From: Terebella lapidaria
Taxonomy: Eukaryota; Annelida; Polychaeta; Terebellida; Terebellidae
Length of the DNA stretch: 64,000 nucleotides
NCBI GenBank assembly: GCA_949152475.1
Contig: OX424569.1
Coordinates: forward strand, 30,673,950-30,737,949
Reading direction: 5' to 3'
Shown: positions 5,082-56,537 of the stretch, piece by piece
How positions within the stretch are numbered: position 1 is the first letter of the stretch
How the letters are laid out: the number at the start of each line of letters is the position of its first letter
Translations under genes and position numbers: made by a program
Notes under the pieces: generated by a model
What the model saw: only the letters and a program-made list of their open reading frames with translations
What the model was told of the DNA's origin: nothing
Databases searched by the model: none

Positions 5082-5168
5082 TTTTGCTACCTGGTGTCAA
5101 TTAGCACTTAATCATTTGTTTACACATTTCAGACCACCACCGAGTTCCCAGAGCACAATGCTTACACA

Positions 5169-5196
5169 GATTAAGGTACCGCGCGGTACCTTAATC
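5169..5196. repeat. Perfect 28-bp palindrome with GGTACC core
   Basis: The half-site GATTAAGGTACCGC is followed by its exact reverse complement. The same palindrome occurs at 28095-28122 (segment F copy 2) and at 30283-30310 (an inverted related copy). It overlaps the left end of the MITE-like unit. An AAAGATGGCGG (YY1-like) motif follows at 5197-5207. Confidence 0.85.
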
Positions 5197-5392
5197 AAAG
5201 ATGGCGGAAGGTAGATTATGCTTCGACCTTTTATCGGCGATTTCTAGCATATACATGAGAAATGCGCGTATATTTTTGTGGTTTCGAAGAGGGAATTACA
5301 ACATATACACTGTGGATAAGTTATAAGCGATGTTATAGTGGCAGTCGCGAGTAATTTGAGGGAGAAGAAATCGGCTTGATTACGGTACCGCG
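5182..5392. mobile_element. MITE-like unit with 15-bp terminal inverted repeats
   Basis: The left end CGCGGTACCTTAATC (5182-5196) is the reverse complement, with one mismatch, of the right end GATTACGGTACCGCG (5378-5392). Two more direct copies of the right-end motif follow: GATTACGGTACCACG at 5400-5414 and GATTACGGTTCCACG at 5433-5447. An inverted related copy occupies about 30036-30325. No coding capacity is seen, so it is non-autonomous. The true ends may lie outside the TIRs, because similarity between copies continues to a GCACA..TGCTTACACA motif just left of 5169. Confidence 0.55.
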
Positions 5393-6335
5393 TGAGGTGG
5401 ATTACGGTACCACGAATAGCCCATGCATCGGTGATTACGGTTCCACGACTACACAATTCATCCATTTAGTTTTTTTTTTCCTTACAAAGGTGCTTCTACG
5501 GTGTTACTTTTGTGACACACAGTCATATAGAGTAACAAAATTATTCGACCACTGTGCTGTGGAGCATCAAGGCTAGGAATTCAGCGTACGGCGGCGATTT
5601 CTGTGTGACCAAACAGGAGAACTACTATGGAAGTCTATACGTATATACATGATATAATTGTATATAATTGATCGACTTAAGCAGGGCCACAAATTATGTA
5701 GATGTCAATGACAGGTGTATCAGATACAGACGTTCAAGGTGTTCAAGCGTTGTACGAGAAACGGGACGGGGAAATGACTTCCTGTCACTACTGCAGGCCA
5801 CCGGCGATGGAACCCTAGATCCCCGACACATTTCTCTACATATATTATTGGATATTGGAAATTTCTTGTCGGCTGAGACTTTGAATAGCATCAGATACAG
5901 TGATGTGACACTTGACTTCTGGTCCTTGGTTTACCGGTGTGTTGATACTTCCGTCCCGGCCGTGAAATACACTTTCTGGAAGGACCATTGAGCGTCAGCC
6001 TCTTAATTTCTAACCTTGCTGTCCATTCCTTCAAGATATATATAATACACGTGGACTCCTCTCCATCAACGATATAAAATTGGTAACAATAAACAAAAGA
6101 TAACAAAAACTTATCTATTGATAAATGGGTATATAATAACAAAATCTCTTTTATTCACAACATATCTGGGATGGAACAGAACGTGATGAACACATCAACT
6201 AACATATCATCGTCGGTTTTCCGGGTTAGAGACTGGTACATTTTTTGTACAAGACAGAATTTGGAATAAAATTGAATAATTGATACACATGTATGACAGG
6301 AATTAGAAAACTTTGAATATTATAATATTACTGAA

Positions 6336-6601
6336 TGTTGTAAAACACTGATGTATATATGTTGACAATTACCTTGCTTAGGCAAGTGTCGCAGATGAGA
6401 CGAATCCTCGGCTGCAAGTAGAATCAGGCTGCGGTGTGCGAGCGTTCTTCGTGCTTTCAGTCCAAGGGTTCACATTCGTCTGACTTGCGTTTCCCGGGCC
6501 CCGGCTGTAGGGCTTTCCCCGATTACGTCCTACCCGCTGTGGTGATGCTGATTGGCTTGTTGGATTGGGACTCGCTAATTTACGGATGCAGTTTCACAAC
6601 A
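6336..6601 (-). repeat. LTR1 (266 bp), 3' LTR of retrotransposon copy 1
   Basis: It starts TGTTGT and ends ACAACA, so it has TG..CA termini inside a 6-bp inverted repeat. It appears identical to LTR2 and LTR3. On the minus (sense) strand it carries a CCAAT-type motif (GCCAATCAGC at 6547-6556). I saw no AATAAA in it and no convincing TATA box. The purine-rich PPT lies immediately outside its sense-strand 5' edge, which defines it as the 3' LTR of copy 1. Confidence 0.95.
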
Positions 6602-6610
6602 TCCTCCCCC
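6602..6610 (-). other. Polypurine tract (PPT), copy 1
   Basis: On the sense (minus) strand GGGGGAGGA directly abuts the first base of LTR1. This is the expected position and composition of the RNase H-resistant primer for plus-strand DNA synthesis. Confidence 0.8.
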
Positions 6611-6699
6611 GTTTTGAAGGATTCCGGACTATCCTGTTGAAAGCTAGAGGAAATACTGGTGGGCGTTCTGAAGAAGGACGAATACACGGACTAATGTGT

Positions 6700-7176: not shown

Positions 7177-8736
7177 CTATTTCTTAGACTCTCCCTCCCC
7201 CCAGAAGAACCGGAGGGCGTTCTGACGGGCCTGGAGGGCGATCAGTGTCGGCGGGAAGTTCCGGACTCGCGCGATCCGCTGGATGATGGGCCGTAAGGCG
7301 AATGGTGTCGGGCTTTGGTACCCCGCGTCGCTCTCCAGCAGCAAACGATGACCCTCCATGGCCTTGAGCATCTGGGTGGTAGGCTCTCCCGCGCGGAGAA
7401 GTGTCTTTCCGATGCCGAACCTGACGTTTGGGAAGGCTGAGGTCCACCGTTTGGCTGCGTTCACTGTTCCCGAAAAACAATGGAGATAGACGGGGTGCTG
7501 TCGCGGCAGGACATCCTGGAGGATCCGTAGACCGTCCGAGGTCGCTTGATCGGACCCAAATGCATCTCGGATGTGCAGCACTACTGGAAGCCGCTGCTCC
7601 AAGGCAATTCCCAGTACAACTCTGAAGTACTCCCGTTGGCGGTTGTGCTCTTCCTCCTTGGTCTGCCGGAAGTAGTCGAGACCGATCTCTCCGACCCCAA
7701 CACAGTCAGGCCGCGCCACGGCAATCCGCAGTTCTGCCCAGTGGACATCCGTCACCTCGTCCCGAGAGCGACCAACCACCGTCGGATGGTAGCCCAGTGT
7801 GAAACTCACACCAGACAACTTCTCCAAACGGGGCAGGAAGCGCCCGAAACCAGGAAAGTTGAGGCTCGCCACAATCCTGTCCAGTGCAACACGCTGTCCC
7901 TCTGGGGTGTTGGCCTCTAGTCGTGGAAGGTTGACGTGACCATCTCCTCCAAGGAACTTCTCGAGGTGAGCGTGAGCATCGATGGTGATGAGCTGCAGCC
8001 CGGGGATGACTGGTTGTATCGGTTGGATAATATCCGGCAAGCGGACCTGGCGTTCATCCAGCACGACAATCAGCTTGATCACGATAGACCAGTGAGTCAG
8101 ACAGGCGACGGAGCTCTGCGGGATCAGAGCAAACACCTCCATATGGTCCAGTCTCCCGTTCAGCACCTCAAAGCTGTGGAAGAGCTGCTGGTAGGACGGG
8201 GGAATGTTCTGCGACCGGTCGTCATTGTAGAGGCGCTGTTCGATCACCAGCTGGAGTAGGTCCTGCAGAGTAGAACAGCAAAATTCCTGCCGGAGGAAGT
8301 TAAGCAAACCATTCATCTGGCCTACCCATTGTGTCAGCCGTCGGTCGGTGAAGAAGTCCTCCTCTAGGTGGTCAAGTTTGGACTCGTGACAGGCAATCAA
8401 GAAGGCTCGGCTGAGTTCGGATTTCTGACACCGGAAGCAACAGTGGTCGGGCCGCACATACCAGGGCAGATGGCAGTCTATCAGGTGACGCTTCATGGCC
8501 GCTTGAGTAGGCTCCTTGCAGATGGTGCAAACCTTCAACTGTTTGACTTTGCCGTCGGCAGTGCGCTTCACTGAGGGTGGCCGGTCAGAGGGCCCACGCA
8601 GACTGTCGGCACTAGCTGTTACCAGCCGAGTCTCAGCATGAGTCTCCGAGGTCCCGGACAGGGCCGTTGACACCGACTCCTCGAGAAGAGTCTCGTCATA
8701 GTCGGGGATGAATTCTGATTCATCAACGATCTCCAT
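7177..8736 (-). CDS. ORF3: zinc-finger plus TatD-family metal-dependent hydrolase, copy 1 (519 aa)
   Basis: Residues 1-65 are low-complexity and acidic. Two zinc-finger-like motifs follow: C70-x2-C73-x10-H84-x4-H89, and C100-x2-C103 with H117 and H123. From about residue 249 to the end the protein is a full TatD-type TIM-barrel hydrolase. It has DAHAH (D253, H255, H257), GVGEIGLDYF (E350), LPVVLHIRDA (H388), YLHCFSG (H419), LLLESDAGY (D470) and a C-terminal QNALRFF (N506). All expected metal ligands are present. TatD proteins are Mg-dependent DNases/exonucleases, so nuclease activity is expected from the family. The gene occupies the env position, 208 nt downstream of the pol stop. No signal peptide or membrane segment is seen, so it is not an envelope protein. 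The ATG is chosen because a splice acceptor ends 2 nt before it. Copy 2 differs at residue 207 (Q here, P there). Confidence 0.93.
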   Translation of the reverse strand: MEIVDESEFIPDYDETLLEESVSTALSGTSETHAETRLVTASADSLRGPSDRPPSVKRTADGKVKQLKVCTICKEPTQAAMKRHLIDCHLPWYVRPDHCCFRCQKSELSRAFLIACHESKLDHLEEDFFTDRRLTQWVGQMNGLLNFLRQEFCCSTLQDLLQLVIEQRLYNDDRSQNIPPSYQQLFHSFEVLNGRLDHMEVFALIPQSSVACLTHWSIVIKLIVVLDERQVRLPDIIQPIQPVIPGLQLITIDAHAHLEKFLGGDGHVNLPRLEANTPEGQRVALDRIVASLNFPGFGRFLPRLEKLSGVSFTLGYHPTVVGRSRDEVTDVHWAELRIAVARPDCVGVGEIGLDYFRQTKEEEHNRQREYFRVVLGIALEQRLPVVLHIRDAFGSDQATSDGLRILQDVLPRQHPVYLHCFSGTVNAAKRWTSAFPNVRFGIGKTLLRAGEPTTQMLKAMEGHRLLLESDAGYQSPTPFALRPIIQRIARVRNFPPTLIALQARQNALRFFWGEGESKK

Positions 8737-8738
8737 CT

Positions 8739-8765
8739 CTGCAAGTTCAAAACAGACAGTTAGGG
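8739..8765 (-). promoter_or_regulatory. 3' splice site for ORF3 subgenomic RNA, copy 1
   Basis: On the sense strand a CTAACTG branch-point-like motif is followed by a T-rich stretch and ACTTGCAG, with the AG at 8740-8739. The next bases are AG then the ATG of ORF3. A second acceptor-like CGCAG and two GGTGAGAAT donor-like motifs lie in the same 208-nt pol-ORF3 spacer. This resembles the spliced env strategy of retroviruses and errantiviruses. Splicing itself is inferred. Confidence 0.6.
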
Positions 8766-8944: not shown

Positions 8945-11900
8945 CTACTGCTCGTAGTCCGCCAGGTATGCAGGTGGCCTGACCCTTCTTCCCGCTCTCG
9001 ATTGGGTTGGCTCTTCAAATAGGCGAGTCAGGCCCCAGTCATCATGGATCTCTGATGTCTCTTGATCCCTTTGCCGGCCCCGACCTTGATTTCGGGGTCC
9101 ATCTGGAACTTGTTCGAGTTCTAGATCTGGGTCTGCTTGTTCACATTCCGGATCTGGATCTTGGTCCAATGTTACTGAAGTTCCCCTGTCTCTTTCTTCA
9201 CTCAGCAGCTGTTGACGCCTCCGCCGGACCCATAAAGGAATATCCCGGTCTTCACAAATGCGTAACCGATCGTGGTGGAGTATGGACTTCCTCTTCCGAG
9301 ATTCCACCTCGTAGAGGATAGGCGACACTACGCGGGTCACCAGGAAGGGACCCACAAACACCGGCTGCAATTTTGCGCTCTGGCCCGGCTTGGTGGCACT
9401 GTCCAACTTGTAGACGAGGTCTCCGACCTCGAAGAGTCGTTCCCGCACACGAACGTCATACTGTTCCTTTTGGCGAACCAGTGACTTTTTAAGGACTTGT
9501 CGGGCAGATTCCTGAGCATCCTGCAGACGCTCGAGTAATTGCTTGACATAATCTGGTGGATCTTGGGTAGCTCGGTCTTGGATGCCGAAGATCTGAGATG
9601 CCAGGGAGATCTCTCGCCCCAGCATAAGCATATTTGGGGTGAACCCGGTGGTGCGGTTGACGGTTCCCCGGATAGCCATTCCAATGAGCGAGAGATGTTT
9701 GTCCCAATCCTTTTGGGTGCCTTTCAGATAACATCGTATTGTTTGCAGGATCGTCCGGTTGTAACGCTCCACCTGTCCATTTGCTGACGGACGATATGGC
9801 GTAGTTCGGGTCTTGGTAATCTCCAGGACTCGACACAGCTCAGCAAACAGCGCCGACTGGAAATTACGACCCTGGTCACTATGGATAAAATGGGGAATGC
9901 CGAATCTACAGATGAAATTGTCGATCAGTGCCTGACAAGTGACTTCAGCAGTTTGTTGCGGAACAGGGTAGAGCTCGACCCATTTTGTGTATTGATCGAC
10001 GAGTACCAGGATGTAGCGATTACCACAGTTGGACTCCACAAAAGGACCCATGAAGTCGAGGTGGACACGTTCCATTGGGTAACCGGCATGAAAGGTGGTC
10101 AATGCAGCCTTCGCTTTCTTAGACGGACGCTTGTTGGTGTTGCATGTCTTGCAGGTCCGCACATACAGTTCACAGTCACGCTGCATCAGATACCAGTAAC
10201 AGGACGTTTGTAATCGAAGCAAGGTCTTGTGTTGCCCAAAATGTCCTGAAGATTTTACGTCATGGGCCAGGCGTAATGCCTCGTCTTTCAATTCTTCAGG
10301 CACCACAAGCTTTCTGGTCACTCGATTAGCTTCTTCCCAGGAGTAGTACAGTACACCGTCTACCAGAGACAGCTGGCGTCTCAAGTTCCACAAGTACTTT
10401 GTACCTCGCCCATACAGGGTCAGCTCGGCTTGATCAGGTGTTCGAGAGTCACGGAGCCAGCTCATGATGGGCTCTAGTACGGGATCTTTTGATTGTAGGC
10501 CCTCTAGCTCTGTTGTTGTGTAAGCGGAGATGAGGGCAATTGGTTCCTGGCCCTCTGAGACACTGACCTCTCGAATCGCAAGAGGTACGACATCATCTAC
10601 ATCCTCGTGAAATCTCTTCCATTGGCTATGGACTTTGGAGCAATATTGACAACCCCCACAGGGCAGATGCTGCAGCTCAGCACCAGCCCGATAACAGTCA
10701 CACTCCTTGTCTAGTGTTGGATAGCGGCTGAGGACATCAGCGTTGACGTGTAGACGACCACTCCTATGGGCGATGGTCATATCATATTGGCTCAACTCCT
10801 CGAGCCAACGAGCCAGTTGACCCTCCGGCCGCTTAAACCTCATCAGCCAGATCAAACTGTGGTGATCCGTTCTGATGATAAAGGCACGTCCAAGCAAGTA
10901 ATGGCGAAACTGCCTCGTGAATTTCACCACGGCTAACAGTTCTTTGCGTGTCGTGCAATACTTGCGTTGAGCCGGGTCGAGAGAATTAGCTGCATAGGCG
11001 ATGGTTCGCTCCTTGCCATCTTGGACTTGGGAAAGTTCAGCGCCTATGGCATAGTCGGAGGCATCCGTATCCAGGATGAATTGGTCTTCAGAGTTGGGAA
11101 ACGCCAACACAGGTGCCGTCAAAGCCAGATGTTTGAGATGGTCAAAGGCCTCCTGGTGAGCCGCACTCCAGATGAACGACACTTTCTTGGAAGTGAGCTG
11201 GTACAGCAGATCAGTCAGCTGGGAGTAGCGTGGTATGAACTGACGGTGATAGTTCATAAATCCAAGAAAGGATTCGAGGTCCTTCTTGGTCTTGGGCGCT
11301 TCCCAATTCCGTATGGCTTCCAGCTTCTGATCAGATATCCGCATACCTTCCCCACTGACGTGTCGGCCCAAAAAATCAACAGATGTTTGGAACAGTTCAC
11401 ATTTCCGAGGTTTCAGCTTTAGTTGGAACTGCTGCATCCGTTGGAAAACCGTTTCCAGGTTCTGGATGTTGTCCTCAAAGGAGCTTCCCAGGACGATAAT
11501 ATCATCCAAATAGGCTAACACCTGCTTCCATTCCAACCCTCGTAAAACCAGTGTCATGACTCTCATGAAAGTTGCTGGGGCATTGCAAAGGCCGAAGCCC
11601 ATTCTCACATGTTCGAACAGCCCGTAGCGAGTGATGAAGGCAGTTTTGGCCCGGTCTTCTGGACGTATCTGGATCTGCCAGTACCCTGACGCCAGGTCGA
11701 GAGTACTGAAGTATTTGGCCCCGTAGAGCGTGTCCATGCACTGGTCGATTCTCGGCAATGGAAAGGAGTCTTTGATGGTCTTAGTGTTGAGGCCCCGGTA
11801 GTCTATACAATAGCGTACCGAGCCGTCTTTTTTCCGGATTAGCACTGGAGCTGACGCCCACTCTGAGTTGGAGGGTTGAATGACGCCGAATTCCAACATC

Positions 11901-13183
11901 TTCTTCAAGTGGCCTTGTTCCTCATTTTCAAACCCCAGTGGCGTTCTCCGCATTCTTTCTCTGACTGGAGGCGTTCCATCCGTGATAATGCCATGTTCCA
12001 CAGCCGTGAAATTGCCCAGGTCAAAATCGTCTCGTGCAAATGCACTGGCATATGTATTCAGCAGTTGACGTGCCTGCTCTTTCTGGGTTGACGTCAGGAG
12101 TGTGGTACTCTTTTCATAGAGACCACGAAGGTGCTCAGGTAGCTCTCCAGTTGACTCTTGGGAGACCTGTTGGATTTCTGCTGAAAACTCGGTCTTGTCC
12201 TCAATCCGAGGGTCTTCCAAGTCGAAAGCTGTGCCAATCAGTTGCTTGTGACGCAGTGTGATGTAGCGATCTGTTACATTCATCACACAAACTGGCACAT
12301 CCCTGTTGTTATCTACGACCAGTTTCGGAATTAGTAGTCCATCTGTGACCATGACAGGTTCTATGATCAGCCCGTCCTGCTGGACTGTAGGACCTGACAC
12401 AAAACAGTTTACTCTCCGGACGCTGTTAGGTGCGATCACAGTTCGTTTTTTCATCAATACTTGTCGAACCAGGTGTTTGTTTTGATGACGGTCAAACTGT
12501 GACATGGCTGGGATAACCTCCCCAGGAATGACCATGACATTACTGTTGAAGTCAATGATACATTCATGACGATGTAGAAAATCATGTCCTAGCAGCATGT
12601 CGTCCTCTATGTTGGCGCCAATGAGATCAGTGCGGAAAACCTTGGTTCCCAGCTGTAACGGCACATTCCGGAACACGATCCCTCCTTCCTTCTTTCCAAA
12701 GGCTCCCGTTAATCGGATGTGTTCCCCACTCTGCCTTAGTTTAAGCTTGTCTGCGACTGCCGGTTTGATGAGAGTTACCTCTGCAGCCGTGTCAACGATC
12801 GCTTCCAGCTGGGATCCCTCAATGACCACTGGCACCGACATATTCCAGGGCTTGCCTTTTGTGTTCCCGGGTTCCCTTCCATTACTTTCCTTGGTTTCCA
12901 TCAGAGCTCCAGTTTCATCCTGTCGATGTACATCTTGATCCACGAACAAAGCAGAAGGAGAATCCCGCCACTCCGAACATGGATCCCGGTGCTTCGGATT
13001 AACTGTTTCTCTGACTTGTCCTGGGTGATCCACAATTGGCACAGAGGGAAAATCCCACTGGTCCGCACATGGATCCTGCTGTTCTGAACTTGACCAGTCA
13101 TCACCTGCCCGGCTGGGTACGGGACCAGTTTGAACCCCAGGATCAGTTGACAAAACAGAGGGAGCATCCCACCGCATCGACAA
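8945..13183 (-). CDS. pol: pol polyprotein: protease, reverse transcriptase, RNase H, integrase, copy 1
   Basis: Numbering is from the codon at 13183, a TTG. The open frame actually extends upstream to a TAG at 13346-13348, and the first ATG is at 13177. The protease has DTAAEVTL (D131) and LLGHDF (197-202). The RT has LDLASG (D496) and YLDD (558-561). RNase H has D705, E748 and D773. A Cys-rich linker (CDC, then CGGCQYC, about 828-848) precedes the integrase. The integrase has the HHCC finger H974, H981, C1011, C1014, and the DDE triad D1043, D1103, E1139 (Dx35E). A GPF motif (1278-1280) and an acidic tail follow; no chromodomain is seen. The frame is -1 relative to gag and overlaps it by 85 nt, so a Gag-Pol fusion by frameshifting is likely. 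Catalytic residues are intact, so it is expected to be active. Confidence 0.95.
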   Translation of the reverse strand: MSMRWDAPSVLSTDPGVQTGPVPSRAGDDWSSSEQQDPCADQWDFPSVPIVDHPGQVRETVNPKHRDPCSEWRDSPSALFVDQDVHRQDETGALMETKESNGREPGNTKGKPWNMSVPVVIEGSQLEAIVDTAAEVTLIKPAVADKLKLRQSGEHIRLTGAFGKKEGGIVFRNVPLQLGTKVFRTDLIGANIEDDMLLGHDFLHRHECIIDFNSNVMVIPGEVIPAMSQFDRHQNKHLVRQVLMKKRTVIAPNSVRRVNCFVSGPTVQQDGLIIEPVMVTDGLLIPKLVVDNNRDVPVCVMNVTDRYITLRHKQLIGTAFDLEDPRIEDKTEFSAEIQQVSQESTGELPEHLRGLYEKSTTLLTSTQKEQARQLLNTYASAFARDDFDLGNFTAVEHGIITDGTPPVRERMRRTPLGFENEEQGHLKKMLEFGVIQPSNSEWASAPVLIRKKDGSVRYCIDYRGLNTKTIKDSFPLPRIDQCMDTLYGAKYFSTLDLASGYWQIQIRPEDRAKTAFITRYGLFEHVRMGFGLCNAPATFMRVMTLVLRGLEWKQVLAYLDDIIVLGSSFEDNIQNLETVFQRMQQFQLKLKPRKCELFQTSVDFLGRHVSGEGMRISDQKLEAIRNWEAPKTKKDLESFLGFMNYHRQFIPRYSQLTDLLYQLTSKKVSFIWSAAHQEAFDHLKHLALTAPVLAFPNSEDQFILDTDASDYAIGAELSQVQDGKERTIAYAANSLDPAQRKYCTTRKELLAVVKFTRQFRHYLLGRAFIIRTDHHSLIWLMRFKRPEGQLARWLEELSQYDMTIAHRSGRLHVNADVLSRYPTLDKECDCYRAGAELQHLPCGGCQYCSKVHSQWKRFHEDVDDVVPLAIREVSVSEGQEPIALISAYTTTELEGLQSKDPVLEPIMSWLRDSRTPDQAELTLYGRGTKYLWNLRRQLSLVDGVLYYSWEEANRVTRKLVVPEELKDEALRLAHDVKSSGHFGQHKTLLRLQTSCYWYLMQRDCELYVRTCKTCNTNKRPSKKAKAALTTFHAGYPMERVHLDFMGPFVESNCGNRYILVLVDQYTKWVELYPVPQQTAEVTCQALIDNFICRFGIPHFIHSDQGRNFQSALFAELCRVLEITKTRTTPYRPSANGQVERYNRTILQTIRCYLKGTQKDWDKHLSLIGMAIRGTVNRTTGFTPNMLMLGREISLASQIFGIQDRATQDPPDYVKQLLERLQDAQESARQVLKKSLVRQKEQYDVRVRERLFEVGDLVYKLDSATKPGQSAKLQPVFVGPFLVTRVVSPILYEVESRKRKSILHHDRLRICEDRDIPLWVRRRRQQLLSEERDRGTSVTLDQDPDPECEQADPDLELEQVPDGPRNQGRGRQRDQETSEIHDDWGLTRLFEEPTQSRAGRRVRPPAYLADYEQ

Positions 13184-13260: not shown

Positions 13261-15393
13261 CTACTTCGTCAACCCGTTGGAGTTTGACGCCTGGTTTGAG
13301 CGAGTAGGCGAGGCACCTGCACGATATCGGTTGGGACAGTCTCGGCTAAGATGAGGGCCTCCACAGACATAACAACCTCTGTCATGGTTCTGAGCCGAAG
13401 ATGACGCTGAAGCTGGACTTCCAAGCCTCCTTGGTGAAGATTGTTTATCACAATCCCGTGCAAAGTGGTTGCCACCACATCGGAAACATCCTGTTCCGGC
13501 CCGAGATGTGGGTGGTGGTGACCTAGCAGGTCGGTTAGGTGACAAAGCCTGCTGGTATCGCTGTGGTGATGACGAGCGATCTTGCAGAGATCTTGATCTG
13601 GGATCCTTGCTTGGGCAATTTGATGCGAAATGCCCAGGGTTTCCGCACCTGAAACAAACATCCTTGGGAGCAGCCCCTGGTTGCTGACGAGTCGGTGTAG
13701 ACTCTCGGGTGCTGTTTTCACGCCGATCCATTAGTAGATCACAGAGACGCTCCACGAGCGTGTTGAGATCAGATTGTTGAGATCGCTGAGGCGAGACAGC
13801 CCGAATGGTTCTCGATTCTGGTGAGTAACCTGGATCTTCAAAGGTTACTTGACGAGCAGGGTGATGCTTGCCTTGATTGAAGGTCTTCTGATTTTGCAGA
13901 GAGCTCTTCACATATTTCAGTGCCTTGCTGATGTTCCGAGGATTTTTCTCGGCGGCTCTGAAGGCTGCGGCCTTTTCCTTGCACCCTCTGAGGAAGCATT
14001 CTACGGCCAAGGGGTTTATCATGTTGTGGGGAGCATTCGGATACCCATCAACGACAAGTCGGTAGACCCGATCCGCAAATTCATCAAGATCCTCCCCTTC
14101 TTCTTGCAACGTTGAAGTCAGCTGCTTCCTGACAAGTGAGGCTGGGTCTTTCTGGCCATATCTTTTCTTCAGGGCCTTGATCAACTCATCGTATGGCTTC
14201 CTACCCAGAGATGACCTTGACTGTAGGAACTCGATTGCTTTGTCCCGCAGACAGAGAAGCAATTTCTCCTTCTTAGTTTTGTTCCCCCAGCGGTACATCT
14301 TCGCCATACGTTTAAATTGGAAGTAGAAGCTACTCCAATTCTTGGATTCGCCGTGGAATGTAGCGAGTTTTGGTGTAGGGTCTTTGCTGCCTCTACGCTG
14401 CTGCGGCTCCTCCTCGCTATCATCATCACTGGTTTCGTCCGAATCCAAATAATCATCTTCACTCTCACTGCTGTCTGACTCAGAGCTGGATCTCGGCTTT
14501 CTCCGTTTGAGCTTGGGAGAGAGTGGCTCCTGCCTGTGGTCAGCACGCGGCTGTCTTTCCTTTGGGAGATCTTGCCGCTCCAAGTGTCTTGGATTGACTG
14601 GCTTGGTCGATGACTTCCCCAAACCCTGGGTTTCCTGTTGAAGACCGGCCGTCTTCCGTTGCTTGGTGACAGACTTGACCTTCTCGGTCCTCGGTTTTGC
14701 ACCAGCATACACTCCATCTTCTGGGAATCCAAGACGGCTCACGTAGCGCTCATGATCCGACAATGGCTTAATGTCACGATTAATCTCTCGCTCTAGCATG
14801 GATTCCATCTTCCATTGCTTCCCAGGAGCAGAATCCGGCTGGATGTTCGAGAAGTTGTGTTCATCTGGCTCACACTCTCCAAATTTAGCTGGTTGTTGCT
14901 GCCCCTGATGTGATGTAGGCAGAGACCAGTTTGGCTGCGACTGAGGCACCGGAAATGGTGGTTGTTGAGTGACTTGTGGTGGCGGCTGGAAACGGAGAGA
15001 TTTTATCAGGTCGGTCATGTCGGTCCTGAGCTGTTTCATTTCATTCGACAGCTTATCGAATCCTTTTGCCGTCTCATCCCTCAGTTGATGTAGTCCCGCC
15101 TTTGTAGCATACTGTTGGTCCATTCCAGATTCTGTACCTGTAGTCATTCCTGATGATTCATCACTAGCAGACGTACCTTCTGGAATAGGTTGGAGGACAC
15201 CAGATGCCATCAACTCGGTGAAGTGTCGACTGGGCAAATTGGTTACAGTAACCAATTGCAGCAGATCAATCTCCTTGTCGGGAGACTGGATTTTAGCTAT
15301 CTCCCTAGCTTTTTGTTTCCCAATCTGAGGCAACTTCTGAAGTTCCTCCACTGAAGCCTTATTTATATCCATGCTCACAATGTTCCCTACCAC
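13261..15393 (-). CDS. gag: gag polyprotein with N-terminal HhH motif and three zinc knuckles, copy 1 (710 aa)
   Basis: Residues 9-35 (DINKASVEELQKLPQIGKQK, then AREIAKI) fit a ComEA-like helix-hairpin-helix. A coiled-coil-like stretch lies at 100-133, a Pro/Gln-rich region at 136-168, and a basic then very acidic Ser-rich region at 290-330. A capsid-like helical region spans about 345-500 (WSSFYFQFKRMAKMYRW, later LDEFADRVYRLV). Three CCHC knuckles start at C580 (CX2CX4HX4C), C636 and C674 (both CX2CX3HX4C). The gene ends TAG at 13261-13263 and overlaps the -1 pol frame. It is the structural particle protein. Copy 2 differs by G100E. The ATG at 15393 follows the AT-rich leader and the HhH begins at once, so this start is plausible; another ATG lies at codon 8. 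Confidence 0.93.
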   Translation of the reverse strand: MVGNIVSMDINKASVEELQKLPQIGKQKAREIAKIQSPDKEIDLLQLVTVTNLPSRHFTELMASGVLQPIPEGTSASDESSGMTTGTESGMDQQYATKAGLHQLRDETAKGFDKLSNEMKQLRTDMTDLIKSLRFQPPPQVTQQPPFPVPQSQPNWSLPTSHQGQQQPAKFGECEPDEHNFSNIQPDSAPGKQWKMESMLEREINRDIKPLSDHERYVSRLGFPEDGVYAGAKPRTEKVKSVTKQRKTAGLQQETQGLGKSSTKPVNPRHLERQDLPKERQPRADHRQEPLSPKLKRRKPRSSSESDSSESEDDYLDSDETSDDDSEEEPQQRRGSKDPTPKLATFHGESKNWSSFYFQFKRMAKMYRWGNKTKKEKLLLCLRDKAIEFLQSRSSLGRKPYDELIKALKKRYGQKDPASLVRKQLTSTLQEEGEDLDEFADRVYRLVVDGYPNAPHNMINPLAVECFLRGCKEKAAAFRAAEKNPRNISKALKYVKSSLQNQKTFNQGKHHPARQVTFEDPGYSPESRTIRAVSPQRSQQSDLNTLVERLCDLLMDRRENSTRESTPTRQQPGAAPKDVCFRCGNPGHFASNCPSKDPRSRSLQDRSSSPQRYQQALSPNRPARSPPPTSRAGTGCFRCGGNHFARDCDKQSSPRRLGSPASASSSAQNHDRGCYVCGGPHLSRDCPNRYRAGASPTRSNQASNSNGLTK

Positions 15394-17026: not shown

Positions 17027-17037
17027 TTCTGACACCA
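17027..17037 (-). other. Primer-binding site, tRNA-Leu type, copy 1
   Basis: One base inside the 5' LTR the sense strand reads TGGTGTCAGAA. This is complementary to the 3' end (TTCTGACA plus CCA) known for some metazoan tRNA-Leu species. The match then stops at about 11 nt, shorter than the usual 18 nt. Confidence 0.7.
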
Positions 17038-17038
17038 A

Positions 17039-17304
17039 TGTTGTAAAACACTGATGTATATATGTTGACAATTACCTTGCTTAGGCAAGTGTCGCAGATG
17101 AGACGAATCCTCGGCTGCAAGTAGAATCAGGCTGCGGTGTGCGAGCGTTCTTCGTGCTTTCAGTCCAAGGGTTCACATTCGTCTGACTTGCGTTTCCCGG
17201 GCCCCGGCTGTAGGGCTTTCCCCGATTACGTCCTACCCGCTGTGGTGATGCTGATTGGCTTGTTGGATTGGGACTCGCTAATTTACGGATGCAGTTTCAC
17301 AACA
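17039..17304 (-). repeat. LTR2 (266 bp), shared between the two retrotransposon copies
   Basis: It serves as 5' LTR of copy 1 (PBS on its left side on the plus strand) and 3' LTR of copy 2 (PPT on its right side). It has TGTTGT..ACAACA ends and I see it as identical to LTR1 and LTR3. Sharing one LTR is the signature of LTR-LTR unequal recombination or of a concatemeric insertion. Confidence 0.95.
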
Positions 17305-17313
17305 TCCTCCCCC
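17305..17313 (-). other. Polypurine tract (PPT), copy 2
   Basis: GGGGGAGGA on the sense strand, directly abutting LTR2, as in copy 1. Confidence 0.8.
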
Positions 17314-17402
17314 GTTTTGAAGGATTCCGGACTATCCTGTTGAAAGCTAGAGGAAATACTGGTGGGCGTTCTGAAGAAGGACGAATACACGGACTAATGT
17401 GT

Positions 17403-17879: not shown

Positions 17880-19439
17880 CTATTTCTTAGACTCTCCCTC
17901 CCCCCAGAAGAACCGGAGGGCGTTCTGACGGGCCTGGAGGGCGATCAGTGTCGGCGGGAAGTTCCGGACTCGCGCGATCCGCTGGATGATGGGCCGTAAG
18001 GCGAATGGTGTCGGGCTTTGGTACCCCGCGTCGCTCTCCAGCAGCAAACGATGACCCTCCATGGCCTTGAGCATCTGGGTGGTAGGCTCTCCCGCGCGGA
18101 GAAGTGTCTTTCCGATGCCGAACCTGACGTTTGGGAAGGCTGAGGTCCACCGTTTGGCTGCGTTCACTGTTCCCGAAAAACAATGGAGATAGACGGGGTG
18201 CTGTCGCGGCAGGACATCCTGGAGGATCCGTAGACCGTCCGAGGTCGCTTGATCGGACCCAAATGCATCTCGGATGTGCAGCACTACTGGAAGCCGCTGC
18301 TCCAAGGCAATTCCCAGTACAACTCTGAAGTACTCCCGTTGGCGGTTGTGCTCTTCCTCCTTGGTCTGCCGGAAGTAGTCGAGACCGATCTCTCCGACCC
18401 CAACACAGTCAGGCCGCGCCACGGCAATCCGCAGTTCTGCCCAGTGGACATCCGTCACCTCGTCCCGAGAGCGACCAACCACCGTCGGATGGTAGCCCAG
18501 TGTGAAACTCACACCAGACAACTTCTCCAAACGGGGCAGGAAGCGCCCGAAACCAGGAAAGTTGAGGCTCGCCACAATCCTGTCCAGTGCAACACGCTGT
18601 CCCTCTGGGGTGTTGGCCTCTAGTCGTGGAAGGTTGACGTGACCATCTCCTCCAAGGAACTTCTCGAGGTGAGCGTGAGCATCGATGGTGATGAGCTGCA
18701 GCCCGGGGATGACTGGTTGTATCGGTTGGATAATATCCGGCAAGCGGACCTGGCGTTCATCCAGCACGACAATCAGCTTGATCACGATAGACCAGTGAGT
18801 CAGACAGGCGACGGAGCTCGGCGGGATCAGAGCAAACACCTCCATATGGTCCAGTCTCCCGTTCAGCACCTCAAAGCTGTGGAAGAGCTGCTGGTAGGAC
18901 GGGGGAATGTTCTGCGACCGGTCGTCATTGTAGAGGCGCTGTTCGATCACCAGCTGGAGTAGGTCCTGCAGAGTAGAACAGCAAAATTCCTGCCGGAGGA
19001 AGTTAAGCAAACCATTCATCTGGCCTACCCATTGTGTCAGCCGTCGGTCGGTGAAGAAGTCCTCCTCTAGGTGGTCAAGTTTGGACTCGTGACAGGCAAT
19101 CAAGAAGGCTCGGCTGAGTTCGGATTTCTGACACCGGAAGCAACAGTGGTCGGGCCGCACATACCAGGGCAGATGGCAGTCTATCAGGTGACGCTTCATG
19201 GCCGCTTGAGTAGGCTCCTTGCAGATGGTGCAAACCTTCAACTGTTTGACTTTGCCGTCGGCAGTGCGCTTCACTGAGGGTGGCCGGTCAGAGGGCCCAC
19301 GCAGACTGTCGGCACTAGCTGTTACCAGCCGAGTCTCAGCATGAGTCTCCGAGGTCCCGGACAGGGCCGTTGACACCGACTCCTCGAGAAGAGTCTCGTC
19401 ATAGTCGGGGATGAATTCTGATTCATCAACGATCTCCAT
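17880..19439 (-). CDS. ORF3: zinc-finger plus TatD-family hydrolase, copy 2 (519 aa)
   Basis: Full-length and open, with the same zinc-finger pairs and TatD ligands (H255, H257, E350, H388, H419, D470) as copy 1. The only protein difference I see is proline instead of glutamine at residue 207, between the finger region and the barrel. It is placed after pol with the same 208-nt spacer and splice-acceptor-like signal. Retention of an intact catalytic domain in both copies agrees with a functional role in the element, although the copies are so young that intactness alone is weak evidence for selection. Confidence 0.93.
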   Translation of the reverse strand: MEIVDESEFIPDYDETLLEESVSTALSGTSETHAETRLVTASADSLRGPSDRPPSVKRTADGKVKQLKVCTICKEPTQAAMKRHLIDCHLPWYVRPDHCCFRCQKSELSRAFLIACHESKLDHLEEDFFTDRRLTQWVGQMNGLLNFLRQEFCCSTLQDLLQLVIEQRLYNDDRSQNIPPSYQQLFHSFEVLNGRLDHMEVFALIPPSSVACLTHWSIVIKLIVVLDERQVRLPDIIQPIQPVIPGLQLITIDAHAHLEKFLGGDGHVNLPRLEANTPEGQRVALDRIVASLNFPGFGRFLPRLEKLSGVSFTLGYHPTVVGRSRDEVTDVHWAELRIAVARPDCVGVGEIGLDYFRQTKEEEHNRQREYFRVVLGIALEQRLPVVLHIRDAFGSDQATSDGLRILQDVLPRQHPVYLHCFSGTVNAAKRWTSAFPNVRFGIGKTLLRAGEPTTQMLKAMEGHRLLLESDAGYQSPTPFALRPIIQRIARVRNFPPTLIALQARQNALRFFWGEGESKK

Positions 19440-19647: not shown

Positions 19648-22600
19648 CTACTGCTCGTAGTCCGCCAGGTATGCAGGTGGCCTGACCCTTCTTCCCGCTC
19701 TCGATTGGGTTGGCTCTTCAAATAGGCGAGTCAGGCCCCAGTCATCATGGATCTCTGATGTCTCTTGATCCCTTTGCCGGCCCCGACCTTGATTTCGGGG
19801 TCCATCTGGAACTTGTTCGAGTTCTAGATCTGGGTCTGCTTGTTCACATTCCGGATCTGGATCTTGGTCCAATGTTACTGAAGTTCCCCTGTCTCTTTCT
19901 TCACTCAGCAGCTGTTGACGCCTCCGCCGGACCCATAAAGGAATATCCCGGTCTTCACAAATGCGTAACCGATCGTGGTGGAGTATGGACTTCCTCTTCC
20001 GAGATTCCACCTCGTAGAGGATAGGCGACACTACGCGGGTCACCAGGAAGGGACCCACAAACACCGGCTGCAATTTTGCGCTCTGGCCCGGCTTGGTGGC
20101 ACTGTCCAACTTGTAGACGAGGTCTCCGACCTCGAAGAGTCGTTCCCGCACACGAACGTCATACTGTTCCTTTTGGCGAACCAGTGACTTTTTAAGGACT
20201 TGTCGGGCAGATTCCTGAGCATCCTGCAGACGCTCGAGTAATTGCTTGACATAATCTGGTGGATCTTGGGTAGCTCGGTCTTGGATGCCGAAGATCTGAG
20301 ATGCCAGGGAGATCTCTCGCCCCAGCATAAGCATATTTGGGGTGAACCCGGTGGTGCGGTTGACGGTTCCCCGGATAGCCATTCCAATGAGCGAGAGATG
20401 TTTGTCCCAATCCTTTTGGGTGCCTTTCAGATAACATCGTATTGTTTGCAGGATCGTCCGGTTGTAACGCTCCACCTGTCCATTTGCTGACGGACGATAT
20501 GGCGTAGTTCGGGTCTTGGTAATCTCCAGGACTCGACACAGCTCAGCAAACAGCGCCGACTGGAAATTACGACCCTGGTCACTATGGATAAAATGGGGAA
20601 TGCCGAATCTACAGATGAAATTGTCGATCAGTGCCTGACAAGTGACTTCAGCAGTTTGTTGCGGAACAGGGTAGAGCTCGACCCATTTTGTGTATTGATC
20701 GACGAGTACCAGGATGTAGCGATTACCACAGTTGGACTCCACAAAAGGACCCATGAAGTCGAGGTGGACACGTTCCATTGGGTAACCGGCATGAAAGGTG
20801 GTCAATGCAGCCTTCGCTTTCTTAGACGGACGCTTGTTGGTGTTGCATGTCTTGCAGGTCCGCACATACAGTTCACAGTCACGCTGCATCAGATACCAGT
20901 AACAGGACGTTTGTAATCGAAGCAAGGTCTTGTGTTGCCCAAAATGTCCTGAAGATTTTACGTCATGGGCCAGGCGTAATGCCTCGTCTTTCAATTCTTC
21001 AGGCACCACAAGCTTTCTGGTCACTCGATTAGCTTCTTCCCAGGAGTAGTACAGTACACCGTCTACCAGAGACAGCTGGCGTCTCAAGTTCCACAAGTAC
21101 TTTGTACCTCGCCCATACAGGGTCAGCTCGGCTTGATCAGGTGTTCGAGAGTCACGGAGCCAGCTCATGATGGGCTCTAGTACGGGATCTTTTGATTGTA
21201 GGCCCTCTAGCTCTGTTGTTGTGTAAGCGGAGATGAGGGCAATTGGTTCCTGGCCCTCTGAGACACTGACCTCTCGAATCGCAAGAGGTACGACATCATC
21301 TACATCCTCGTGAAATCTCTTCCATTGGCTATGGACTTTGGAGCAATATTGACAACCCCCACAGGGCAGATGCTGCAGCTCAGCACCAGCCCGATAACAG
21401 TCACACTCCTTGTCTAGTGTTGGATAGCGGCTGAGGACATCAGCGTTGACGTGTAGACGACCACTCCTATGGGCGATGGTCATATCATATTGGCTCAACT
21501 CCTCGAGCCAACGAGCCAGTTGACCCTCCGGCCGCTTAAACCTCATCAGCCAGATCAAACTGTGGTGATCCGTTCTGATGATAAAGGCACGTCCAAGCAA
21601 GTAATGGCGAAACTGCCTCGTGAATTTCACCACGGCTAACAGTTCTTTGCGTGTCGTGCAATACTTGCGTTGAGCCGGGTCGAGAGAATTAGCTGCATAG
21701 GCGATGGTTCGCTCCTTGCCATCTTGGACTTGGGAAAGTTCAGCGCCTATGGCATAGTCGGAGGCATCCGTATCCAGGATGAATTGGTCTTCAGAGTTGG
21801 GAAACGCCAACACAGGTGCCGTCAAAGCCAGATGTTTGAGATGGTCAAAGGCCTCCTGGTGAGCCGCACTCCAGATGAACGACACTTTCTTGGAAGTGAG
21901 CTGGTACAGCAGATCAGTCAGCTGGGAGTAGCGTGGTATGAACTGACGGTGATAGTTCATAAATCCAAGAAAGGATTCGAGGTCCTTCTTGGTCTTGGGC
22001 GCTTCCCAATTCCGTATGGCTTCCAGCTTCTGATCAGATATCCGCATACCTTCCCCACTGACGTGTCGGCCCAAAAAATCAACAGATGTTTGGAACAGTT
22101 CACATTTCCGAGGTTTCAGCTTTAGTTGGAACTGCTGCATCCGTTGGAAAACCGTTTCCAGGTTCTGGATGTTGTCCTCAAAGGAGCTTCCCAGGACGAT
22201 AATATCATCCAAATAGGCTAACACCTGCTTCCATTCCAACCCTCGTAAAACCAGTGTCATGACTCTCATGAAAGTTGCTGGGGCATTGCAAAGGCCGAAG
22301 CCCATTCTCACATGTTCGAACAGCCCGTAGCGAGTGATGAAGGCAGTTTTGGCCCGGTCTTCTGGACGTATCTGGATCTGCCAGTACCCTGACGCCAGGT
22401 CGAGAGTACTGAAGTATTTGGCCCCGTAGAGCGTGTCCATGCACTGGTCGATTCTCGGCAATGGAAAGGAGTCTTTGATGGTCTTAGTGTTGAGGCCCCG
22501 GTAGTCTATACAATAGCGTACCGAGCCGTCTTTTTTCCGGATTAGCACTGGAGCTGACGCCCACTCTGAGTTGGAGGGTTGAATGACGCCGAATTCCAAC

Positions 22601-23886
22601 ATCTTCTTCAAGTGGCCTTGTTCCTCATTTTCAAACCCCAGTGGCGTTCTCCGCATTCTTTCTCTGACTGGAGGCGTTCCATCCGTGATAATGCCATGTT
22701 CCACAGCCGTGAAATTGCCCAGGTCAAAATCGTCTCGTGCAAATGCACTGGCATATGTATTCAGCAGTTGACGTGCCTGCTCTTTCTGGGTTGACGTCAG
22801 GAGTGTGGTACTCTTTTCATAGAGACCACGAAGGTGCTCAGGTAGCTCTCCAGTTGACTCTTGGGAGACCTGTTGGATTTCTGCTGAAAACTCGGTCTTG
22901 TCCTCAATCCGAGGGTCTTCCAAGTCGAAAGCTGTGCCAATCAGTTGCTTGTGACGCAGTGTGATGTAGCGATCTGTTACATTCATCACACAAACTGGCA
23001 CATCCCTGTTGTTATCTACGACCAGTTTCGGAATTAGTAGTCCATCTGTGACCATGACAGGTTCTATGATCAGCCCGTCCTGCTGGACTGTAGGACCTGA
23101 CACAAAACAGTTTACTCTCCGGACGCTGTTAGGTGCGATCACAGTTCGTTTTTTCATCAATACTTGTCGAACCAGGTGTTTGTTTTGATGACGGTCAAAC
23201 TGTGACATGGCTGGGATAACCTCCCCAGGAATGACCATGACATTACTGTTGAAGTCAATGATACATTCATGACGATGTAGAAAATCATGTCCTAGCAGCA
23301 TGTCGTCCTCTATGTTGGCGCCAATGAGATCAGTGCGGAAAACCTTGGTTCCCAGCTGTAACGGCACATTCCGGAACACGATCCCTCCTTCCTTCTTTCC
23401 AAAGGCTCCCGTTAATCGGATGTGTTCCCCACTCTGCCTTAGTTTAAGCTTGTCTGCGACTGCCGGTTTGATGAGAGTTACCTCTGCAGCCGTGTCAACG
23501 ATCGCTTCCAGCTGGGATCCCTCAATGACCACTGGCACCGACATATTCCAGGGCTTGCCTTTTGTGTTCCCGGGTTCCCTTCCATTACTTTCCTTGGTTT
23601 CCATCAGAGCTCCAGTTTCATCCTGTCGATGTACATCTTGATCCACGAACAAAGCAGAAGGAGAATCCCGCCACTCCGAACATGGATCCCGGTGCTTCGG
23701 ATTAACTGTTTCTCTGACTTGTCCTGGGTGATCCACAATTGGCACAGAGGGAAAATCCCACTGGTCCGCACATGGATCCTGCTGTTCTGAACTTGACCAG
23801 TCATCACCTGCCCGGCTGGGTACGGGACCAGTTTGAACCCCAGGATCAGTTGACAAAACAGAGGGAGCATCCCACCGCATCGACAA
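19648..23886 (-). CDS. pol: pol polyprotein: PR-RT-RNaseH-IN, copy 2
   Basis: By reading, the protein is the same as the pol of copy 1 over all 1412 residues counted from the TTG at 23886. Protease D131, RT YLDD, the RNase H acidic triad, the integrase HHCC finger and the DDE triad are all present. The open frame continues upstream to about 24048, overlapping gag in the -1 frame. It appears competent, so copy 2 could act as an autonomous element. Confidence 0.95.
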   Translation of the reverse strand: MSMRWDAPSVLSTDPGVQTGPVPSRAGDDWSSSEQQDPCADQWDFPSVPIVDHPGQVRETVNPKHRDPCSEWRDSPSALFVDQDVHRQDETGALMETKESNGREPGNTKGKPWNMSVPVVIEGSQLEAIVDTAAEVTLIKPAVADKLKLRQSGEHIRLTGAFGKKEGGIVFRNVPLQLGTKVFRTDLIGANIEDDMLLGHDFLHRHECIIDFNSNVMVIPGEVIPAMSQFDRHQNKHLVRQVLMKKRTVIAPNSVRRVNCFVSGPTVQQDGLIIEPVMVTDGLLIPKLVVDNNRDVPVCVMNVTDRYITLRHKQLIGTAFDLEDPRIEDKTEFSAEIQQVSQESTGELPEHLRGLYEKSTTLLTSTQKEQARQLLNTYASAFARDDFDLGNFTAVEHGIITDGTPPVRERMRRTPLGFENEEQGHLKKMLEFGVIQPSNSEWASAPVLIRKKDGSVRYCIDYRGLNTKTIKDSFPLPRIDQCMDTLYGAKYFSTLDLASGYWQIQIRPEDRAKTAFITRYGLFEHVRMGFGLCNAPATFMRVMTLVLRGLEWKQVLAYLDDIIVLGSSFEDNIQNLETVFQRMQQFQLKLKPRKCELFQTSVDFLGRHVSGEGMRISDQKLEAIRNWEAPKTKKDLESFLGFMNYHRQFIPRYSQLTDLLYQLTSKKVSFIWSAAHQEAFDHLKHLALTAPVLAFPNSEDQFILDTDASDYAIGAELSQVQDGKERTIAYAANSLDPAQRKYCTTRKELLAVVKFTRQFRHYLLGRAFIIRTDHHSLIWLMRFKRPEGQLARWLEELSQYDMTIAHRSGRLHVNADVLSRYPTLDKECDCYRAGAELQHLPCGGCQYCSKVHSQWKRFHEDVDDVVPLAIREVSVSEGQEPIALISAYTTTELEGLQSKDPVLEPIMSWLRDSRTPDQAELTLYGRGTKYLWNLRRQLSLVDGVLYYSWEEANRVTRKLVVPEELKDEALRLAHDVKSSGHFGQHKTLLRLQTSCYWYLMQRDCELYVRTCKTCNTNKRPSKKAKAALTTFHAGYPMERVHLDFMGPFVESNCGNRYILVLVDQYTKWVELYPVPQQTAEVTCQALIDNFICRFGIPHFIHSDQGRNFQSALFAELCRVLEITKTRTTPYRPSANGQVERYNRTILQTIRCYLKGTQKDWDKHLSLIGMAIRGTVNRTTGFTPNMLMLGREISLASQIFGIQDRATQDPPDYVKQLLERLQDAQESARQVLKKSLVRQKEQYDVRVRERLFEVGDLVYKLDSATKPGQSAKLQPVFVGPFLVTRVVSPILYEVESRKRKSILHHDRLRICEDRDIPLWVRRRRQQLLSEERDRGTSVTLDQDPDPECEQADPDLELEQVPDGPRNQGRGRQRDQETSEIHDDWGLTRLFEEPTQSRAGRRVRPPAYLADYEQ

Positions 23887-27729: not shown

Positions 27730-27740
27730 TTCTGACACCA
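27730..27740 (-). other. Primer-binding site, tRNA-Leu type, copy 2
   Basis: TGGTGTCAGAA on the sense strand, one base inside LTR3, as in copy 1. Confidence 0.7.
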
Positions 27741-27741
27741 A

Positions 27742-28007
27742 TGTTGTAAAACACTGATGTATATATGTTGACAATTACCTTGCTTAGGCAAGTGTCGCAG
27801 ATGAGACGAATCCTCGGCTGCAAGTAGAATCAGGCTGCGGTGTGCGAGCGTTCTTCGTGCTTTCAGTCCAAGGGTTCACATTCGTCTGACTTGCGTTTCC
27901 CGGGCCCCGGCTGTAGGGCTTTCCCCGATTACGTCCTACCCGCTGTGGTGATGCTGATTGGCTTGTTGGATTGGGACTCGCTAATTTACGGATGCAGTTT
28001 CACAACA
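27742..28007 (-). repeat. LTR3 (266 bp), 5' LTR of retrotransposon copy 2
   Basis: Complete, with TGTTGT and ACAACA ends. The base after its last A is the first base of segment F copy 2, so the right edge of the array is a clean LTR terminus rather than a truncation. Confidence 0.95.
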
Positions 28008-29261
28008 TTTTGCTACCTGGTGTCAATTAGCACTTAATCATTTGTTTACACATTTCAGACCACCACCGAGTTCCCAGAGCACAATGCTTACACAGATTAA
28101 GGTACCGCGCGGTACCTTAATCAAAGATGGCGGAAGGTAGATTATGCTTCGACCTTTTATCGGCGATTTCTAGCATATACATGAGAAATGCGCGTATATT
28201 TTTGTGGTTTCGAAGAGGGAATTACAACATATACACTGTGGATAAGTTATAAGCGATGTTATAGTGGCAGTCGCGAGTAATTTGAGGGAGAAGAAATCGG
28301 CTTGATTACGGTACCGCGTGAGGTGGATTACGGTACCACGAATAGCCCATGCATCGGTGATTACGGTTCCACGACTACACAATTCATCCATTTAGTTTTT
28401 TTTTTCCTTACAAAGGTGCTTCTACGGTGTTACTTTTGTGACACACAGTCATATAGAGTAACAAAATTATTCGACCACTGTGCTGTGGAGCATCAAGGCT
28501 AGGAATTCAGCGTACGGCGGCGATTTCTGTGTGACCAAACAGGAGAACTACTATGGAAGTCTATACGTATATACATGATATAATTGTATATAATTGATCG
28601 ACTTAAGCAGGGCCACAAATTATGTAGATGTCAATGACAGGTGTATCAGATACAGACGTTCAAGGTGTTCAAGCGTTGTACGAGAAACGGGACGGGGAAA
28701 TGACTTCCTGTCACTACTGCAGGCCACCGGCGATGGAACCCTAGATCCCCGACACATTTCTCTACATATATTATTGGATATTGGAAATTTCTTGTCGGCT
28801 GAGACTTTGAATAGCATCAGATACAGTGATGTGACACTTGACTTCTGGTCCTTGGTTTACCGGTGTGTTGATACTTCCGTCCCGGCCGTGAAATACACTT
28901 TCTGGAAGGACCATTGAGCGTCAGCCTCTTAATTTCTAACCTTGCTGTCCATTCCTTCAAGATATATATAATACACGTGGACTCCTCTCCATCAACGATA
29001 TAAAATTGGTAACAATAAACAAAAGATAACAAAAACTTATCTATTGATAAATGGGTATATAATAACAAAATCTCTTTTATTCACAACATATCTGGGATGG
29101 AACAGAACGTGATGAACACATCAACTAACATATCATCGTCGGTTTTCCGGGTTAGAGACTGGTACATTTTTTGTACAAGACAGAATTTGGAATAAAATTG
29201 AATAATTGATACACATGTATGACAGGAATTAGAAAACTTTGAATATTATAATATTACTGAA
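28008..29261. repeat. Segment F, copy 2 (1254 bp), right flank of the retrotransposon array
   Basis: Collinear with 5082-6335 without indels or differences seen. It ends in ATTACTGAA and continues into unique sequence GTCACTTTGAA. It carries a second copy of the palindrome (28095-28122) and MITE-like unit (about 28108-28318). Confidence 0.9.
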
Positions 29262-30325: not shown

Positions 30326-30340
30326 CAGAGGACGTCTCAG

Positions 30341-56310: not shown

Positions 56311-56537
56311 AGCTTCACCCTGAAATGCCTCCAAGGCCTTTAGGCCTTGACGTCTACATTTGTAGTTATCAACTCGGGTTTTAGCAGCTGATGACACGAC
56401 AGTGGTACTGAACAGCGTCCCAAAAATGTGGCTCCCGATTCCGATGCAAAATAGTGGACTGTTTATGTCAGTAAATATAAATGGTATACCGGTATCAAGC
56501 ATTGCAAAATTTGAAAAATTAGGCCAAGGGCCAAAGA

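Follow-up and report, generated by a model that had tools for sequence, protein, structure and literature searches.

A Ty3/Gypsy-type retrotransposon of the polychaete Terebella lapidaria encodes a TatD-family protein of nuclease type in the position of an env gene. In the window, by which we mean the whole 64,000-nucleotide stretch analysed here (contig OX424569.1, positions 30,673,950 to 30,737,949), two tandem and nearly identical copies of this element occupy 6336-28007 on the minus strand. In each of them a third open reading frame (ORF3) lies on the same strand as pol, between pol and the purine tract that adjoins the long terminal repeat (LTR). Our data leave us highly confident that ORF3 is an accessory gene of the element that is kept under selection, and the case is made by sequence analysis of the element's anatomy, the linkage of ORF3 to pol and the LTRs, its intact active-site motifs, purifying selection, the placement of a splice site at its start and its grouping with a host gene. 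Taken as a whole, these observations would be best explained by an old capture whose product now serves a lineage of elements as an element-encoded accessory nuclease, a reading that we hold to be probable with some reserve.

The original prediction, made from the letters of this stretch, described an LTR element whose env position is taken by an intact TatD-family ORF, complete in the named TatD motifs and preceded by two zinc-finger-like motifs. The profile search that it proposed bears this out: ORF3, an open frame of 519 amino acids, matches TatD_DNase (PF01026) over residues 252-511 with an E-value of 3.7e-36 (125.2 bits against a cut-off of 27; profile positions 1-252 of 253), and no other Pfam family is matched up to E 0.1. 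The motifs DAHAH, GEIGLDY, LHIRD, LHCFSG and ESDAG are all present. In an alignment of 13 proteins, ORF3 and 12 relatives, with pairwise identities of 24-45%, D253, H255, H257, E350, H388, H419, E468 and D470 show no variation, and all of these residues apart from E468 make up what we take to be the metal site of TatD proteins. The AlphaFold model, built on a five-sequence alignment, is largely confident over the TatD part and poor over the N-terminal half (mean pLDDT 61); its top solved match in Foldseek is 6l25 (E 3.1e-13, TMt 0.86), and TATDN1 and TATDN3 match too. In fold and motifs ORF3 is like the bacterial TatD/YcfH nucleases (6l25, 1yix, 4p5u), but the bacterial matches among Foldseek ranks 1-13 are only 22-25% identical to it, and bacterial members of the family fall outside the group formed by ORF3 and the host gene.

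Ahead of the TatD domain the protein begins with an acidic N-terminus that bears a PDYDE motif, of a type present in 11 of 15 proteins; a C2H2-type finger, another Cys/His motif and a helical region follow, the last in a low-confidence part of the model. C70, C73, H84 and H89 of the finger are kept in at least 90% of the 13 aligned proteins, and 14 of 15 proteins show the finger pattern; the remaining one, P0004, is without that part of the protein. Because Pfam zinc-finger models match these proteins weakly (best E 0.13, in one member of the 13), "zinc-finger-like" is the right wording for the two motifs. A basic stretch that resembles a nuclear localisation signal precedes the finger in several families.

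The family analyses were made in one genome, the host assembly of 761.6 Mb in 438 contigs, where a search with ORF3 gave 86 matches. Fourteen own-family copies span residues 1-519 at 96-100% identity (two of them are the window's) and one more spans 21-519, all of them free of stop codons, and many further near-full-length copies are found at 28-36% identity. The same LTR (98.5-100%) is found in six own-family copies that lie outside the window (L003-L008), and the flank beyond it differs in each, so that they are independent insertions. ORF3 had also been called intact in both window copies, and it is indeed open in both, but the pair is not strong independent evidence and was not counted as such, because the copies show only 2 differences in 10703 positions (one of them inside ORF3), have their middle LTR in common and are bordered by the same 1254-bp flank on both sides.

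Adjacency to pol and LTRs had been set beforehand as a test of the idea, and in the host genome it extends to diverged copies of ORF3. All ten of those that were read are flanked by LTR-like direct repeats of 206-520 bp that are 98.9-100% identical, a count that includes copy L (C9:15675050), whose repeat pair comes in two overlapping pieces with no clear TG end, and copy E (C3:12354830), which sits in a nest of repeats. These flanking repeat pairs reject the possibility of a host gene that merely lies beside a pol fragment. Gag, protease (PR), reverse transcriptase and RNase H (RT/RH) and integrase (IN) are encoded upstream on the same strand in eight of the ten, one of the others being without PR/RT and one rearranged, and 4-bp target duplications were read by eye in six and not seen in four. 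The ten copies represent eight families, or nine with the window element, and no two of these share more than 44% identity in ORF3.

The same linkage is seen from the side of the integrase, in a sample of 108 integrases scored out of 7539 candidates and set against 150 listed of 152 TatD matches. Among integrases of at least 49% identity, 67 of 76 are followed downstream, within 4.5 kb, by a TatD match in the same orientation (62 of the 67 within 1.0-1.6 kb; two integrases have one TatD match in common), compared to 0 of 32 integrases at 38-42% identity. For none of the 108 scored integrases does a TatD match lie close by in a different order or on the opposite strand. Counted in reverse, at least 66 of the 150 TatD matches, and at least 56 of the 83 with a length of 730 bp or more, have such an integrase upstream; both figures are lower bounds, as the number of integrases scored was capped and some of the misses are known own-family copies, for example C3:22888094 (L004). 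Two multi-exon TatD genes of host type were also seen by eye among the listed matches.

The ratio of non-synonymous to synonymous change (dN/dS, here omega) is not near 1 across copies, the value that the original prediction had tied to a passive capture. The own family has 15 near-complete copies; in 14 of them (C3:8134882 was left out and fragments were not used), ORF3 shows 44 synonymous and 49 non-synonymous distinct changes, which gives an omega of 0.36 (P 1.4e-6 against neutrality). Changes common to at least two copies number 26 synonymous and 9 non-synonymous, with an omega of 0.11, whereas changes found in a single copy number 18 and 40, with an omega of 0.72 (P 0.15). Such a contrast would be expected if selection acts while the element is being copied and relaxes after insertion.

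In the window copy the ATG of ORF3 is preceded by ...CTAACTGTCTGTTTTGAACTTGCAG-AG, and a CAG or TAG stands at or beside the ATG in most other families. Seven of nine families have a putative 3' splice site no more than 2 nt from the ATG (random mean 0.41), and eight of nine have an acceptor no more than 11 nt away (random mean 1.56), counts that leave out families F and V as near-duplicates of D and R. Neither number was reached in 10,000 random draws, a comparison that rejects a chance acceptor. Because of this putative 3' splice site at the start of ORF3, we propose that its protein is probably made from a subgenomic RNA spliced in the manner of env.

With regard to origin, a tree of the TatD domain alone (midpoint root, host gene entered as fragments, no named TATDN2 included) contains a 97/95 split that holds together nine ORF3s, four outside relatives and an exon-split host gene at C1:31959692-31960629; bacterial proteins, TATDN3-named proteins and a second host gene are on the other side. 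The ORF3s and the four outside relatives group at 92/93. From its motifs we take the host gene to be TATDN2-like. ORF3 is like cellular TATDN2 in so far as its TatD domain groups with this multi-exon gene, but it differs in being intronless, multicopy and enclosed by LTRs, and in having an N-terminal finger region with no confident Pfam match. The clade B+D+P appears both in the RT tree (99/98) and in the ORF3 tree (100/99), and co-inheritance of RT and ORF3 is supported by these trees, if not proved throughout.

Protein searches returned 13 proteins with ORF3 and 37 with the 13-protein alignment, and among them four, P0001-P0004, match over more than half of ORF3; ~8000 candidates were scored in each search and the alignment search missed P0003, so absence there says little. 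The ORF3 relative P0003 and the pol relative P0018 are each reported with a longest contig of exactly 10,289 bp, and they are probably on one contig, which suggests a second host of such elements. No relatives were found in the viral contig set by scans with the ORF3 alignment and with the pol alignment, and in the genome contig set the pol alignment found one contig of a metagenome-assembled genome (L035), its RT 45% identical and with no ORF3 match there. In a fold search of BFVD, a Yasminevirus protein was the one match to reach E 0.001. Further accessory domains occur among the pol relatives: a Macro domain (PF01661) is found in the polyproteins P0055 and P0066, and a PHD finger (PF00628) in several more.

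How might the element have come by this gene, and what might it use it for? The TatD domain most likely came to an ancestor of this Ty3/Gypsy lineage from an animal TATDN2-like gene in a single capture, and the lineage would have kept the ORF while splitting into at least nine families in the host. The protein would be made from the spliced, env-like RNA; its finger region, together with the basic stretch of several families, suggests a nuclear protein that binds nucleic acid, and its TatD barrel could act as a 3' exonuclease or endonuclease on RNA, on RNA:DNA hybrids or on 3' ends that arise from copying or integration of the element. Human TATDN2 is reported to resolve R-loops and to have both exo- and endonuclease activity on RNA (PMC12709183), and because of this analogy we propose a role in processing hybrids or 3' ends in the element's own life cycle, which is the most likely of the roles weighed here while still a tentative assignment.

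The main rival to such a role is counter-defence, in which the nuclease would destroy intermediates of host silencing (small RNAs, nascent-transcript hybrids or cDNA active in sensing) and would not serve replication. ORF3 evolves faster than RT, with a median end branch of 1.38 against 0.39 in matched eight-row trees, and host-interacting proteins often evolve fast. The separate, probably spliced message points the same way, a message of this kind being typical of accessory proteins. Enzymes of TATDN2 type act on RNA in hybrids (PMC12709183), which would suit counter-defence as well. However, the omega of 0.11 on shared changes indicates constraint, with no arms race visible at this time depth, and we consider counter-defence rather unlikely. 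A nuclease directed at other retroelements or viruses in the cell, in the manner of QatD, the TatD nuclease of a bacterial anti-phage system, would agree with the many related families that coexist in the host genome and with a match of ORF3 to the QatD model (3.7e-13), though this is far under its cut-off (49 of 230 bits). Yet the general TatD model scores higher (110 bits, itself under a cut-off of 206), gag, pol and ORF3 are the sole large ORFs on the element's strand, and Pfam showed no likeness of the other ORFs to defence genes, no search having been aimed at Qat partners; control of competitors is therefore a long shot. The finger motifs and basic stretches do point to nucleic-acid binding, but a TatD fold kept purely as a binding or packaging module, with no need for catalysis, is slightly less probable again, as all 13 aligned proteins keep the TatD motif residues unchanged. 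Passive cargo or artefact, meaning a copy of a host gene picked up recently or a host gene set beside pol by mis-assembly, can be dismissed almost entirely, for although assembly may have joined the two copies in the window, it would have to account for nine families, linkage at 67 of 76 integrases, repeat pairs in all ten diverged copies, target duplications in six and the omega on shared changes.

Several observations nevertheless weigh against an old, selected and singly captured gene. In the eight best copies the contrast in ORF3 is smaller, with an omega of 0.11 for shared and 0.26 for single-copy changes. These copies (L001-L008) were chosen as best protein matches, which is a bias against amino-acid changes; the 14-copy set adds weaker full-length ones. 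The last 429 codons of pol in the same eight copies give 0.66 for shared and 0.54 for single-copy changes, with few changes, so weaker constraint occurs elsewhere in the element, and ORF3 is on this comparison at least as constrained as the end of pol. Two close pairs in other families give an omega of 0.50 and 0.44, again from few changes. One diverged copy (C1:98987619) is without the conserved His of the HCF motif, and the basic stretch is weak in the window copy, with at most 3 Lys or Arg in 8 residues. For nine of the 76 close integrases no TatD match is listed downstream; at these the TatD frame may be dispensable, lost, too decayed or unlisted. Most other forks of the RT and ORF3 trees lack resolution, and because of this a single capture is not proved. 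Finally, the acceptor rule was loosened after the sequences had been seen, an earlier and stricter pyrimidine rule having given one site, and the acceptor of family D (CAG 11 nt upstream of the ATG) fails even the looser rule.

The nearest precedent is found in LTR elements of bdelloid rotifers, in which ORF3 codes for a DEDDy exonuclease or a GDSL esterase and such ORF3s are typically expressed from spliced messages, according to the report on them (PMC5408684). These elements resemble that of Terebella in that they combine gag and pol with an enzyme captured into the place of env, which in one case is a nuclease, but the fold differs, the Terebella protein being a TatD metal-dependent barrel with its own finger region; neither ORF3 nor its aligned relatives match a DEDDy or GDSL family in Pfam. 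The original remark that LTR elements usually carry env or nothing at this place thus needs the bdelloid elements as a caveat (PMC5408684). As to the searchable literature, we recognised no description of a TatD ORF in an LTR element in the open text of PubMed Central, a scope that excludes most subscription papers and presumably Repbase reports. Gypsy of Drosophila and the errantiviruses carry an env gene as their ORF3. The Terebella element is like them in the position of ORF3 after pol, in the apparent splice acceptor at its start and in the plan of LTR, primer-binding site (PBS) and polypurine tract (PPT), but its ORF3 is a nuclease-type protein, and neither it nor its 12 aligned relatives match an env family in Pfam, transmembrane segments not having been predicted. 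Plant LTR elements reportedly carry additional ORFs as well and are alike to that extent; the study describing them is not among the open-text papers that contain both "TatD" and "retrotransposon".

If ORF3 is indeed an accessory nuclease of this lineage, LTR retrotransposons gain an enzyme class that is new among their accessory genes, with evidence from linkage and selection that the element uses it, and it becomes testable which step in reverse transcription, integration or silencing needs a nuclease beyond RNase H and integrase. A broader view, which we offer as a real possibility that stops short of being likely, is that a whole animal Gypsy lineage uses a TATDN2-derived nuclease as a standing part of its replication by way of env-like splicing. 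It would then be, within the searches made, the first retroelement lineage found with its own RNA:DNA-hybrid or 3'-end nuclease of TatD fold, and many invertebrate "TATDN2-like" gene models would be its ORF3s. That such models in other invertebrates are retroelement ORFs is plausible and so far only hinted at, and expansions of TATDN2-like gene families elsewhere deserve to be checked as possible element ORFs. In a figure of the giant squid Hox cluster, a TATDN2 gene is drawn beside ZMYM1 and pogo-like genes (PMC6962438); this gene might be the ORF3 of such an element.

The second copy in the window is offset from the first by exactly 10,703 bp, and 10701 of 10703 positions are identical. Three LTRs are present, all identical, with the ends TGTTGT..ACAACA (TG start, CA end), and both a PBS after the 5' LTR and a PPT before the 3' LTR are found; a purine-rich tract also precedes the 3' repeat in most relatives whose sequence was read. 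The PBS TGGTGTCAGAA is presumably a match to tRNA-Leu. The domains of pol follow the order PR (residues 118-205), RT (449-608), RNase H (672-800) and IN (961-1132) by Pfam, and ORF3 as a fusion to pol was rejected, as it is a separate open frame across a 208-nt gap. Flank X was likewise rejected as part of a long LTR, since it lies outside the LTR ends, and a target-site duplication is absent at the joined flanks of the array. Two insertions 1254 bp apart, joined by LTR-LTR crossing over or by a haplotype-switch join in the assembly, would explain both the identical LTRs and the duplicated flank.

Table 1. Coordinates of the retrotransposon copies, their parts and the duplicated flank in the window
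Feature	Position	Strand	Remarks
Host flank X	5082..6335	.	letter-identical to 28008-29261
3' LTR, copy 1	6336..6601	-	266 bp
Purine tract CGGGGGAGGA (minus strand)	6602..6611	-	adjoins LTR; copy 2 counterpart 17305-17314
ORF3, copy 1	7177..8736	-	519 aa, open
TatD domain of ORF3 (residues 252-511)	7204..7983	-	PF01026; Foldseek 6l25
Second Cys/His motif (residues 100-117)	8386..8439	-	C100, C103, H117 kept in at least 90% of 13 proteins
C2H2-type finger (residues 70-89)	8470..8529	-	C70, C73, H84, H89
Putative branch point CTAAC and 3' splice site CAG	8739..8763	-	2 nt before ORF3 ATG
pol, copy 1	8945..13183	-	aspartic protease, RT, RNase H, integrase; Pfam
gag, copy 1	13261..15393	-	N-terminal helix-hairpin-helix, PNMA-like region, CCHC knuckles; first ATG 15372
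Primer-binding site, copy 1	17027..17037	-	TGGTGTCAGAA; identical to copy 2, where read
LTR common to both copies	17039..17304	-	
ORF3, copy 2	17880..19439	-	
pol, copy 2	19648..23886	-	
gag, copy 2	23964..26096	-	
Primer-binding site, copy 2	27730..27740	-	
5' LTR, copy 2	27742..28007	-	
Host flank X, second copy	28008..29261	.	1254 bp

The N-terminus of Gag is a ComEA-like helix-hairpin-helix (HHH_3, 2.3e-6; comE model 0.0018, under its cut-off), an unusual nucleic-acid-binding start for a Gag protein, and this part is matched by tblastn in six of the ten diverged relatives. Elsewhere in the window, 240-bp inverted repeats at 94% lie at 5153-5392 and 30087-30326, inside and outside the duplicated flank X, each with a GATTAAGGTACCGC palindrome. 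Two 400-bp direct repeats in 30341-32703, 99% identical and without TG..CA ends, start ~1.96 kb apart and possibly belong to another, non-autonomous element, and five 147-bp tandem repeats with 83% matches are found at 55579-56311. In the assembly, the 16-kb contig C438 has a cox1 that translates sensibly under the invertebrate mitochondrial code, and this contig is taken as the host mitochondrial genome. A second cox1-like match at C417:44633-46450, in two pieces ~460 bp apart and with TGA codons, is accompanied on the same contig by a weak cytochrome b match and possibly stems from another organism or a nuclear insert.
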